From the NCBI GenBank assembly GCA_946478975.1, contig CAMLEO010000066.1, positions 1 to 27,364 of the forward strand: DNA of 27,364 nt, written 5' to 3'. Position 1 is the stretch's first letter. Every line of letters begins with the position of its first letter. The notes below the pieces were generated by a model. It was not told the origin of the DNA and ran no database searches. It saw only the letters and a list, made by a program, of their open reading frames with translations. This document shows positions 13,399 through 27,364 of the stretch, one piece after another. The translations under genes were made by a program, and so were the position numbers. The DNA comes from an uncultured Steroidobacter sp. GTDB lineage: Bacteria > Pseudomonadota > Gammaproteobacteria > Steroidobacterales > Steroidobacteraceae.

Positions 13399-13420
13399 AT
13401 TAGAATCGCCGGCCTTGTTG

Positions 13421-13527
13421 AAACTCGGGATCGGGCATCCTGCCACGACCCTCGTGCGAGCACGGCAAAAGGCGCGACTTTTGCCCGCTCGCCGCCGCCT
13501 GCGGCGGCGGGGTACATCCATGTACCC
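13421..13527 (+). repeat. Structured intergenic repeat, copy 1
   Basis: One of two copies of a 107-base element; the other is at 26992-27098. The first 35 bases are identical in both. Four hairpins follow one another. Stem A is 13427-13451 (GGG, bulged A, TCGGGCA, loop TCC, matching arm). Stem B is GGCAAAAG / CTTTTGCC around loop GCGCGA, 13464-13485, with outer arms GCGAG 13456-13460 and CTCGC 13488-13492. Stem C is CCGCCG-CCTG-CGGCGG, 13492-13507. Stem D is GGGTACA-TCCA-TGTACCC, 13510-13527. It begins 22 bases after the DUF3999 stop and ends 32 bases before mnmG. It resembles REP/BIME-like intergenic elements in plan; I do not recognise a named family. Confidence 0.9.
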
Positions 13528-13559
13528 GGGGCAGTGCCCGGTGGGCAAAGGTTCATTAC

Positions 13560-15485
13560 ATGCGGTTTCCTGATTTTTTCGATGTCATCGTCGTAGGCGG
13601 CGGCCATGCCGGCACCGAGGCAGCTTTGGCCTCGGCGCGCATGGGCGTGCGCACGCTATTGCTCACGCAAAGCATCGAAACCCTGGGCCAGATGAGCTGC
13701 AATCCCGCCATCGGCGGCATCGGCAAGGGCCACCTGGTGAAGGAAATCGATGCGCTCGGCGGCGCCATGGCGCAGGCGGCGGATCGGGGCGGCATTCAGT
13801 TTCGCATCCTGAATGCCAGCAAAGGCCCGGCGGTGCGGGCCACGCGGGCTCAGGCGGATCGCGTGCTGTACAAGCAGGCCGTGCGTTCGACGCTGGAGAA
13901 TCAGCCGAATCTCACACTGTTCCAGCAGGAAGTCGCCGACCTCGTCGTCGAGAACGAGCGCGTGCACGGTGTCGTGACTCAAACCGGCATCGAATTCCGG
14001 GCGCGGGCCGTGGTGCTCACGGTTGGAACATTCCTCGCCGGCAAGATCCACGTCGGCCTCACGAATTATCAGGGCGGTCGCGCGGGCGATCCGCCGTCGA
14101 ATCGGCTCGCCGAACGTTTGCGTGCGTTGCCATTCCGTGTCGGACGATTGAAGACGGGCACGCCGCCTCGCATCGATGGTCGCACCATCAATTACGAAGG
14201 TTTGCTGATGCAGCCGGGCGATGAGCCCGCGCCGGTGTTTTCATATCTCGGCCGCCGCAGCGATCATCCTCGGCAGGTGAGTTGTTACATCACGGCCACC
14301 AACGAGCGCACGCACGAGATCATTCGCGCTGGCTGCGATCGTTCGCCCATGTACACAGGTGTGATCGAGGGCGTCGGCCCTCGCTATTGCCCGTCGGTGG
14401 AAGACAAGATTCATCGCTTCGCCGACAAGAGCTCGCACCAGATTTTCATCGAGCCCGAAGGGCTGAGGACGCACGAGATCTATCCCAACGGCATTTCCAC
14501 CAGCCTGCCGTTCGATGTGCAGCTGGCGCTGGTGCGCTCGATCAAAGGTTTCGAGAACGCGCACATCACGCGTCCGGGCTACGCGATCGAATATGACTAT
14601 TTCGATCCGCGGGACCTACGTTACAGCCTGGAGACGAAGTTCATCGGCGGATTGTTCTTCGCTGGCCAGATCAACGGTACAACAGGTTACGAAGAGGCGG
14701 CGGCGCAAGGGCTGCTCGCAGGTCTCAACGCTGCGCTGTTGGTTCAAGAGCGCGATGCCTGGACGCCGCGACGAGATGAAGCATACATCGGCGTGCTGGT
14801 CGACGATTTGATCACGCGTGGCACGAGCGAGCCATATCGCATGTTTACGAGCCGCGCCGAATATCGCCTGCTGCTGCGTGAAGACAATGCGGATCTGCGG
14901 CTGACGCCAAAAGGTCGCGAGCTCGGCCTGGTCAACGACGAGCGCTGGGCATTCTTCGAAACCAAGCGCGAGGCGATTGCCGCGGAAGTCACGCGACTCG
15001 ATCGGGCGATCGTCCGGCCGCATCATTTGTCAGAAGAACGATCGCTCGAATTGCTCGGGACTACGTTAAGTCGTGAAGCGCATGCTTTCGATTTGTTACG
15101 TCGTCCGGAGGTGTCGTACGCGTCGCTGGCCTCGATCGAGCAGGTCGGCAAGGCGGAGTGGATGAATGCGCCGGACGCCGACGAGCGGCTGGCAGAGCAG
15201 GTGCAGCTGCAGCTGGAAGTGCAGGCCAAGTACACCGGCTATATCGATCGTCAGCAGGATGAGATCGAGCGGCAGCGCCGGCACGAAGAAACCCGCCTGC
15301 CTGAAAACATCGACTATGCCGAGGTTCGCGGCCTGTCGATCGAAGTGCGCCAGCGCCTGCAGGAAGCCCGGCCGGACACGGTGGGCCGTGCAGCGCGAGT
15401 TCCCGGTGTGACGCCGGCCGCAATTTCATTGCTGCTGGTCCATCTGAAGCGCCGTCCGGGCATTCCCTCACAGCGAGCGGGTTGA
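13560..15485 (+). CDS. mnmG: MnmG (GidA), tRNA uridine-34 carboxymethylaminomethyl-modifying FAD enzyme
   Basis: A 641-residue, full-length MnmG. With MnmE it installs the carboxymethylaminomethyl group on the wobble uridine (U34) of certain tRNAs, using FAD and methylene-tetrahydrofolate. The FAD-binding GGGHAG is at residues 13-18, the family signature [20 protein letters not shown] near 45-64, and [11 protein letters not shown] near 200. The active-site Cys region is [16 protein letters not shown] near 278, and the C-terminal MnmE/tRNA-binding helical part holds [16 protein letters not shown] near 582. AAAGG lies eight bases before the ATG. Unusually, it is not followed by rsmG-parA-parB, its common neighbours in many gammaproteobacteria; a structured repeat precedes it. 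Confidence 0.97.
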
Positions 15486-25559: not shown

Positions 25560-25690
25560 CCGCGACGACCGACGCCCGGATGCTTACGGGTCATAGCTCG
25601 ATCGTTTCACCGGCCCGGCCAGCGATGCTCCTCACCGAAGCCTCCCGGTCAGGCTCCCAAGTTGTGGCATCTGTTTGCGGAAACGTATCC

Positions 25691-26986
25691 ATGGCCGAGA
25701 AGAAGTTTGAACTGACCAATCTGGCGACCGGGAAAAAATCCGTCGCCGACGTGAAGAGCGGCACGCTCGGGCCCGATGTGCTCAACATCGCCAGCCTCGC
25801 CAAGGACCATGGCATGTACACGTTCGATCCGGGCTTCATGGCCACCGCGGCCTGTGAAAGCAAGATCACGTTCATCGACGGCGACGAAGGCGTGCTTCTT
25901 TATCGCGGCATTCCGATCGAGCAGCTGGCGGAAAAGAGCAACTTCCTGGAAGTCGCGTACCTGCTGATCAACGGCGCGCTGCCGACCAGCGAGCAGCAGA
26001 ACGAGTTCACGCACGCGATCCAGTACCACACGATGATCAACGAATCGCTGCTGCGATTCTTCAACGGCTTCCAGTACAACGCGCATCCGATGGCGATGTT
26101 GTCCGGCGTGGTGGCGTCGATGGCGGCGTTCTACCACGACTCGATGGACATCAATAATCCGCGTCACCGCGAGATCTTCGCCCATCGCATCATCGCCAAG
26201 ATTCCGACCATCGCCGCGGCTGCTTACAAGCATTCGCTCGGCCAGCCCTTCATGTATCCGCGCAACGATCTCGATTACTGCGGCAACCTGCTGCATATGT
26301 TCTTCGCCGTGCCGTGCGAGTCGTACAACATCGATCCGGTGCAGGCGCAGGCGCTCGATCTGTTGTTCATCCTGCATGCCGATCACGAGCAGAACGCCAG
26401 CACCTCGACGGTGCGCCTGGCGGGCAGCACCGGTGCGAATCCGTATGCGGCGATTTCTTCGGGCATCTCGGCGCTGTGGGGTCCTGCTCACGGTGGTGCG
26501 AACGAAGCCGTGCTCGCGATGCTGGAGCAGATCGGCACCGTCGAGAACGTGCCGAAGTATCTCGCCAAGGCCAAGGACAAGAACGACAACTTCCGCCTGA
26601 TGGGCTTCGGCCATCGCGTGTACAAGAACTTCGATCCGCGCGCGACCATCATTCGCGCCATGTGTCACAAGGTGCTGGCGAAGCTCGGCAAGTCCGACAA
26701 TCCGCTGTTTGAGCTCGCGCTCAAGCTGGAAGAGATTGCGCTCAAGGACGAGTATTTCGTCGAGCGCAAGCTGTATCCAAACGTCGATTTCTATTCCGGC
26801 ATCATCTACAGCGCGATCGGCATTCCGCAGTCGATGTTCACGGTGATGTTCGCGATCGCGCGCACCGTCGGCTGGGTGGCGCATTGGCAGGAAATGATTT
26901 CCGACCCGTCGATGAAGATCGGCCGCCCGCGTCAGCTGTACACAGGCCCGACCAAGCGCGACTACGTCGAAGTCGAACAGCGTTAA
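25691..26986 (+). CDS. gltA: Citrate synthase (type II, hexameric gammaproteobacterial type)
   Basis: A 431-residue citrate synthase, condensing acetyl-CoA and oxaloacetate at the entry of the TCA cycle. The catalytic triad is His267 in GPAHGGAN, His308 in [14 protein letters not shown] and Asp366 in NVDFYSG, equivalent to E. coli His264, His305 and Asp362. The N-terminal segment with a Cys-containing [15 protein letters not shown] block and the overall length match the long, NADH-regulated hexameric type. [14 protein letters not shown] near 229 is the usual substrate-binding block. The start is the ATG at 25691 ([10 protein letters not shown]); a 37-residue in-frame extension upstream is not family-like. 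A structured repeat begins five bases after its stop. Confidence 0.97.
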
Positions 26987-26991
26987 TCTAT

Positions 26992-27098
26992 AAACTCGGG
27001 ATCGGGCATCCTGCCACGACCCTCGTAGCGAGACAGCCAAAGGCGCGACTTTGGCTGCTCGCCCGCCGCCTGCGGCGGCGAGGTACATCCATGTACCT
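26992..27098 (+). repeat. Structured intergenic repeat, copy 2
   Basis: Second 107-base copy of the element at 13421-13527, in the same orientation. Stem A is 26998-27022. Stem B is CAGCCAAAG / CTTTGGCTG around loop GCGCGA (27034-27057), with outer arms GCGAG 27028-27032 and CTCGC 27058-27062, giving a 14-pair stem with one bulged A. Stem C is CCGCCG-CCTG-CGGCGG (27063-27078) and stem D is AGGTACA-TCCA-TGTACCT (27081-27098). It starts five bases after gltA and runs two bases into the end of the convergent minus-strand gene, so it may serve as the 3' end or terminator of both. Confidence 0.9.
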
Positions 27099-27364
27099 AA
27101 GTATTCTCTTCGAGCAGCGATTCCAGTTCCGCCGCGTCCGCGCGGCGCATCGGCCGGCCATCCACTGGGCTGGCCGGTGACTGTCGGATGCCGTCGATGG
27201 GAAACACGACGGCATCGATTTCGCTGTCGCCGGCGACGAATTGCACCACCGGATACGACACCAGCCGATTCGGCTCATAGCGCAGCCGACGCTCGGCGAT
27301 GTGATGTGGAATCCCGCGCTCCATCAAATGCAGCGCCACCCGCTCGGGGCCGTCGGCAAACAAG
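27097..27364 (-). CDS. C-terminal fragment of an unrecognised protein (cut by right edge)
   Basis: The frame is open from the window edge to a stop at 27097, giving at least 88 residues; the true start lies beyond the window. Visible sequence includes ERVALHLMERGIPHHIAERR, a beta-rich YPVVQFVAGDSEIDAVVFPIDG and a C-terminal acidic helix. I do not recognise the family. It converges with gltA, and its last bases overlap stem D of the repeat. Confidence 0.6.
   Translation of the reverse strand, partial: LFADGPERVALHLMERGIPHHIAERRLRYEPNRLVSYPVVQFVAGDSEIDAVVFPIDGIRQSPASPVDGRPMRRADAAELESLLEENT

Follow-up and report, generated by a model that had tools for sequence, protein, structure and literature searches.

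A dispersed family of multi-hairpin repeats with covarying stems at gene ends in the Steroidobacteraceae

Two copies of a structured repeat in a 27,364-nucleotide stretch of DNA from an uncultured Steroidobacter sp. (the window, that is, the whole stretch that was analysed) belong to a family that covariance-model searches find dispersed in the Steroidobacteraceae and their order. The copies share a fold of several hairpins, their stems covary, and they sit at gene ends. We read them, with a probability of roughly 0.55, as small non-coding, non-autonomous, REP/MITE-like mobile DNA elements whose movement, as our best inference, takes place as folded single-stranded DNA and depends on an enzyme that our searches did not find.

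Results

Two copies with one fold

The copies occupy positions 13,421–13,527 and 26,992–27,098 of the plus strand, 13,571 bases apart from start to start, and are identical at 89 of 107 positions without a gap. A preliminary description, made from the letters alone, had proposed two 107-base copies about 13.5 kb apart with the same order of four hairpins; position, identity and computed fold all agree with this. In copy 1 (core plus six bases, 13,421–13,533; 117.6 bits with the covariance model R1, vide infra), hairpin A (13,427–13,451, loop TCC) is placed by the fold, and hairpins B (13,456–13,492, loop GCGCGA), C (13,493–13,509) and D (13,510–13,527, loop TCCA) by fold and covariation; in copy 2 (26,992–27,104, plus strand; R1 match of 113 bits), the fold places A at 26,998–27,022, B at 27,028–27,062, C at 27,064–27,080 and D at 27,081–27,098. 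As plus-strand single-stranded DNA, copies 1 and 2 have energies 5.6 and 7.5 standard deviations below those of dinucleotide shuffles, respectively, and none of 200 shuffles is as stable as either copy. The differences described earlier between the copies in stem B (two pairs) and stem D (one pair) are real, and each is matched on the opposite arm; the outer part of stem B is also shifted by one base in register between the copies, a feature absent from that description.

Copy 1 lies inside the mnmG leader, 22 bases past the stop codon of a DUF3999 gene (PF13163 by Pfam match) and upstream of mnmG itself (13,560–15,485, plus strand; TIGR00136, 904.7 bits). It is located between the mnmG start codon and a −10-like box (TAGAAT, 13,401–13,406, plus strand; found by eye, with a putative promoter function), and the same hexamer is seen by eye at the corresponding place upstream of mnmG in 7 of 11 relatives. 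Located between this box and the start codon (13,401–13,560), copy 1 may alter mnmG expression. The mnmG part of the window is 86–87% identical to the matching part of genomes G001, G002, G004 and G005, which makes the source of the window a relative of these four, and in all four the element is absent from this site. Copy 2 occupies the whole gap between a citrate synthase gene (25,580–26,986, plus strand; NF004126, 727.6 bits), whose TAA stop codon at 26,984–26,986 lies just before the element, and an open frame that runs towards it from the other side. Hairpin D of copy 2 shares its final two bases with the TAG stop codon of this convergent frame (27,097–27,099, minus strand); the frame has no Pfam match, and its DNA aligns with locus L076.

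Distribution and copy number

Run against the genome collection, an exact hairpin A pattern matches 38 loci, every one of them in Steroidobacter or Peristeroidobacter. As 22 of the 24 hairpin A positions are fixed in this first scan, it under-counts variation in A. Thirteen of the 38 copies served to build R1, which in a search of relatives retrieves a dispersed, multi-copy family, extending what had been concluded from two copies. At E up to 0.01, R1 identifies at least 43, 34, 12, 28 and 50 copies in the Steroidobacter/Peristeroidobacter genomes G001 to G005, respectively. The element occurs in 8 of 14 genomes of the genus of G001, in at least 9 of 100 genomes of the family sample and in at least 12 of 296 of the order sample. 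Thirteen further carriers include G335 (at least 106 copies), G281 (at least 49), G105 (at least 44), G245 (at least 27), G298 (at least 9) and G270 (at least 7); the remaining seven have at least 1 to 4 copies each. All copy counts are lower bounds, with up to 150 first-look candidates scored per genome for G001–G005, the genus and the further carriers, 38 for the family sample and 12 for the order sample.

The core, hairpins A to D, measures about 105–115 bases; its loops are nearly constant (in 37 copies, the T and C of the D loop are invariant), and its stems are variable but matched. Some copies depart from this layout: L019 and L021 have no stem B and L006 is hairpin A alone, by modular make-up or by deletion, and in L291 and L303 (both in G105) a second repeat of about 55 bases lies inside the loop of hairpin D, the stem of which is retained around it. 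Two inverted copies stand 30 bases apart in L071 (1501–1765, G022), and two copies in opposite orientation stand about 250 bases apart in L252 (G105).

A longer form of the element

The 107 bases first described hold as the conserved core (13,421–13,527 and 26,992–27,098), not as the full extent of the element, which is longer in some related genomes. In G335, G105 and their relatives it continues past hairpin D, gains a closing stem, one more hairpin (the fifth) and a right end of CTA(G), and reaches about 170 bases in total. The closing stem (Z) is formed by CGYTTCA in the tail after D and TGAARCG at the left end, and it has its own matched change, that is, A-T in G105 and G-C in G335 (it is mismatched in L264). 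Hairpin E follows the tail, with a matched change of its own in the second copy of L271, and after it comes the right end, GATGGGNAACTA(G); in long copies this end reads as a hairpin, about ten bases and CTAG. Among the 15 copies for which both ends were located, lengths run from 147 to 221 bases, with 13 of the copies at 166 to 171; an AACTA right end was built into the search expression for this measurement and for the right-end loci. In unfiltered flanks read by eye, 11 of the 18 G105 copies with enough flank have the AACTA end. The left end of full-length copies is variable; some have CTAGTT on the left and AACTAG on the right (e.g., L271).

Copies also stand head-to-tail (L069, L249, L256, L262, L270, L271 and L277). 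In the L249, L256, L270 and L271 arrays, the right end of one copy joins the left end of the next via a single CTAG or CTAA; the junction in L277 is CCAT, and the L262 and L069 arrays join without the tail.

The Steroidobacter-type set has a shorter and varied tail. With hairpin D located by a loose expression, GGYGG stands just after D in 45 of 140 copies, and CTA and CTAG occur within 36 bases after D in 39 and 15 of 140, respectively; on the other side, CTAG occurs within 33 bases before the core in 16 of 142. A CTAG target is, accordingly, suggested mainly by the long copies, in which alone the CTAG end is clear. For copy 1 in the window, comparison by eye with full-length copies tentatively suggests a remnant of hairpin E and the right end at 13,528–13,551 (plus strand; GGGCAGTGCCC then GGTGGGCAAAGG, cf. 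GATGGGCAACTAG).

Covariation of the stems

Among 103 aligned copies (alignment A6, with matches from 100 loci that we chose, fitted to the structure), 93.0% of 4180 cells pair, against a shuffle mean of 83.6%; 32 of the 41 pairs have changes on both sides (shuffle mean, 18.1), and 334 cells are changed on both sides (shuffle mean, 69.2). None of 500 shuffles attains the observed values for pairing or for changes on both sides, and the score of 0.256 falls to 0.047 or less when the pairing partners are slid, so the compensation first seen in two copies is borne out across the family.

Because this alignment leans on the structure, we added a loop-anchored test of 143 copies, with arms found in 127 (stem A), 124 (B) and 130 (D); this set includes one model false positive (L017:6323), and the orientation filter that produced it removed 19 of 162 copies, some of them real (e.g., L046, L057 and L065). 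At eight of 20 pair positions, the observed pairing exceeds that of every one of 1000 shuffles (A 3; B 1, 5, 6, 7, 8 and 9; D 4). Most of the other positions are barely variable; D 1 and D 7, the end pairs of stem D, are variable and do not beat the shuffles. At the sixth pair of stem B, 71 of 124 copies have C-G, 19 have A-T and another 19 have G-C; 89.5% are paired, and the highest value among the shuffles is 59.7%. At the fourth pair of stem D, 71 of 130 copies have T-A and 38 have C-G, and the corresponding figures are 86.2% and 76.2%. The loop-anchored test agrees with covariation for stem B and for one pair each of stems A and D.

DNA or RNA

An RNA transcribed from the plus strand is expected to tolerate G-U over A-C. 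In the 103-copy alignment, G-T is found in 51 and A-C in 66 of 4180 cells; without three weak or loop-closing pairs, the counts are 33 and 63 of 3872. One-sided changes between orthologues give 31 G-U and 36 A-C. Since G-U is overall no commoner than A-C, the fold looks like that of DNA hairpins and not of RNA. A cis-acting RNA would keep one orientation relative to its transcript and would tolerate G-U pairs; neither mark was found among these copies, except for G-T pairs at the ends of stem D (loop-anchored: outermost pair G-T in 40 of 130 copies, innermost in 16).

Position at gene ends

The copies are intergenic and mostly close to stop codons, in both orientations, as is typical of REP/BIME repeats. 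Relative to genes called with our own codon-usage caller, 143 copies are distributed as 43 tandem sense, 42 tandem antisense, 28 convergent, 22 divergent and 8 unresolved. With the same gene calls and without L017:6323, 47 of 72 upstream (left) sense genes end no more than 20 bases from the core; on the downstream (right) side, 56 of 67 antisense genes have their stop within 45 bases of hairpin D. The right-hand antisense genes use TAG or TAA stops in 33 of 56 cases, a larger share than in the background (99 of 263 genes; p 0.004 by Fisher's test); left-hand sense genes have no significant excess of TAG or TAA (p 0.26). The gene-end position may arise because a CTAG-like target contains a stop codon, an explanation that is weak for the Steroidobacter-type copies. 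Six copies (L068, L102, L121, L124, L125 and L128) start directly behind the T-tract of a hairpin that, by eye, resembles an intrinsic terminator.

Change in place, gain and loss

In 26 orthologous pairs (hand-picked among both-flank matches and counted in both directions, with three copies used twice), stems differ at 8.0% (0.080) and unpaired positions at 21.9% (0.219). These pairs contain 51 compensated double changes, compared with a simulated mean of 11.7 (maximum 21 in 500 simulations), and 39 one-sided kept pairs, compared with 63.5. Copies with uncompensated stem changes, which had been named as evidence that would tell against selection on the fold, do exist (155 broken pairs), yet they are fewer than simulated (213; minimum 197). 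The low rate of stem differences and the excess of compensated changes therefore indicate that the hairpins, once in place, are maintained or corrected; the slower change of the stems suggests constraint or correction after insertion, and mobility alone needs neither.

Other orthologous sites have no element. The site of L011 in G002 is, in G003 and G005, a gap of about four bases that separates two convergent stop codons, and L142, L027 and L035 are present in G002 and absent in its close relative G004; thus, copies have been gained or lost. Because G005 retains a hairpin-A-like remnant at the L035 site, this case may be a loss; L001, initially taken as the empty site for L068 and L102, also has such a remnant. 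In three pairs of occupied and empty sites compared by eye, about 0 to 26 target bases are replaced, and loss in the empty species is possible. These three empty sites leave the insertion junction unfixed, and a fixed 4-base target duplication was dropped as a candidate after they had been read; by eye, CTAG stands directly left of 10 of 21 copies in G105 and of 7 of 18 loci in G335. Of 38 stretches from G105 and G335, nine were broken off by the end of a contig, as expected near repeats that are nearly identical.

Mobilising enzymes and known families

The profile of the Y1 transposases (PF01797) was searched in 25 genomes, that is, 11 with at least seven copies of the element, eight with 1 to 5 and six without. 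Ten of the 11 high-copy genomes have no match, and the eleventh, G335, has two fragments on one contig; the profile is present in 5 of the 8 low-copy genomes and in 4 of the 6 without copies. In a control, 5 of 14 genomes, E. coli among these, have a match. Single absences are weak, as genome completeness is not given; the pattern across genomes is less so. Four genomes of the genus set without the element (G079, G106, G049 and G033) have one to five Y1 matches, one of the two in G049 falling under the cut-off. An origin by RAYT/REP was lowered as a candidate by this search.

An autonomous partner was sought with a model of the right end (R2), which gives 109 matches in 4 of 5 genomes. Thirty of these were compared with the left and right parts, and 330 bases upstream were read in 17 (two of 19 chosen for this gave no right end). 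The left part is next to the right end in 24 loci; L299 holds a complete copy from a subfamily outside the left queries, L279 and L307 are truncated where their contigs stop, and L293, L300 and L304 have no left part within 1.5 kb, so that a longer copy is possible there. No gene is seen between the ends in any of these 30 loci.

Comparison with Rfam gives no family at threshold for the window, seven matches for the core with flanks (best E 0.45, all far under the gathering scores) and one weak match for five loci with full-length copies. With blastn, 181 bases find nothing in phages or plasmids, and the pattern finds nothing in viral contigs. We found no description of the family in the literature searched, nor a paper on this element there that joins Steroidobacter with repetitive extragenic palindromic or intergenic repeats; most subscription papers lie outside that coverage. 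That the preliminary description did not recognise the element as a named REP/BIME family accords with the Rfam result and with the Y1 transposase missing from 10 of 11 high-copy genomes.

Several known systems resemble the element in part. IS200/IS605-type single-strand transposons have hairpins near their ends, a short end sequence and no clear duplication; they and their derivatives share these traits with the present family, but their Y1 enzyme is the one not detected in the high-copy genomes. HEARO RNA is a multi-hairpin repeat of similar length; at E up to 1, it is not among the Rfam matches of the five full-length loci. Small repeats of another phylum, the BOX elements of Streptococcus pneumoniae (PMC3049150), also offer a comparison. 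Their layout is modular, and some copies here lack modules (L019 and L021); the likeness is one of layout.

REPs are described by Di Nocera et al. (2013; PMC3733652) as repeats of 20–40 bp, intergenic and near the 3′ ends of ORFs, that may supply stop codons (TAG). GTAG REPs and BIMEs with RAYT are thus alike as dispersed, intergenic palindromes near 3′ ends with TAG stops from the repeat ends; however, four to five different hairpins make up each unit of about 107 to 170 bases here, no GTAG tag is seen by eye at the stem base in the consensus, and neighbouring copies are mainly head-to-tail, in contrast to REP/BIMEs, which often form inverted pairs (inverted copies occur in L071 and L252). 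CGTC REPs are likewise dispersed palindromes, apparently without a dedicated transposase; they are characterised as single stems of 8–9 bp with a CGTC tag, arranged as head-to-head dimers and mostly found in alpha-Proteobacteria (PMC3733652), whereas the present units have several hairpins and, in the loci read, mostly head-to-tail neighbours. By eye, neither strand of the consensus contains an 8–9 bp stem that carries a CGTC tag and ends in a CCA tail.

Discussion

We propose that an enzyme would recognise the folded single strand by its loops and ends, that the element would be inserted at CTAG-like or other gene-end sequences, and that copies would survive at gene ends where genes are left unbroken and a stop codon is possibly supplied. 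The mobilising enzyme would not be a detectable Y1 transposase of the RAYT or IS200/IS605 kind. Weighing against a mobile element are the failure to find an enzyme or a copy with a gene, and the absence of a target duplication that could be fixed at the occupied and empty sites. A more specific version is tentative: the family may be a five-hairpin, single-strand DNA transposon-like element, moved by an enzyme of a class so far unconnected with repeats of this kind, that aims at CTAG-like sequences and thereby sits on stop codons, its hairpins being read as DNA, loop by loop.

That the folded form is maintained is strongly supported by many copies; that selection is the cause, as the preliminary description had it, is unsettled. 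The compensated stems may instead come from templated correction of quasi-palindromes in DNA, by template switching in replication, in an element that is mobile or simply old. We give this account a minority share of our confidence. Templated quasi-palindrome mutations are reported in yeast (PMC3820800), and the strand-symmetric mismatches, the slower change of stems than of unpaired positions and the excess of double changes even at fixed orthologous loci all suit it; it explains neither the near-constant loop bases nor the spread. Correction and selection could leave the same pattern among orthologues, and the two are inseparable here. A structured RNA in a 3′ UTR or leader (an mRNA stabiliser, attenuator or sRNA) draws on similar evidence, that is, the strong folds and the stems constrained at orthologous loci, together with many copies a few bases from stop codons, which would be transcribed, and the G-T pairs at the outermost (40 of 130 copies) and innermost (16) positions of stem D. 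However, orientation is balanced relative to tandem genes (43 and 42 copies), G-U is no commoner than A-C over all pairs, one-sided kept pairs fall below simulation (39 vs 63.5), six copies follow a terminator-like T-tract directly (by eye), 22 of 143 copies lie between divergent genes, and Rfam has no match. This makes an RNA function quite improbable. The symmetry of G-U and A-C, the balanced orientation and the terminator-adjacent copies favour a DNA feature, a choice that the preliminary description had left open. An effect on the mRNA of neighbours, e.g., via the mnmG leader, is possible as a side effect.

For the means of movement, a MITE of a DDE or other insertion sequence, with terminal repeats CTAGTT...AACTAG and a CTAG target duplication, seems unlikely. 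Some full-length copies do have these ends (L271), but the left end is variable, three occupied/empty pairs are without a clear duplication, and no gene-bearing copy occurs among the 30 right-end loci. An element of REP/BIME or IS200/IS605 derivation moved by a Y1 tyrosine transposase is the least probable of the accounts. It would fit the right end of the long copies (hairpin, about ten bases, CTAG), as well as the gene-end position and repeat-supplied stop codons described for REPs (PMC3733652); against it, PF01797 is absent in 10 of 11 high-copy genomes and fragmentary in G335 while being found in low-copy and copy-free genomes, and the consensus has, by eye, no GTAG tag at the stem base.

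Small palindromic repeats that lack a transposase, such as the CGTC REPs, are a stated open question (PMC3733652). The present family is a testable case of such repeats, with recent presence/absence differences, a very high copy number in one genome and full-length copies; the near-clean separation of its copies from Y1 transposases adds to its value as a test. Its strong covariation with little tolerance of G-U usefully cautions against taking covariation by itself as proof of an RNA. Within the window, copies of the element extend the mnmG leader and fill the space behind citrate synthase.
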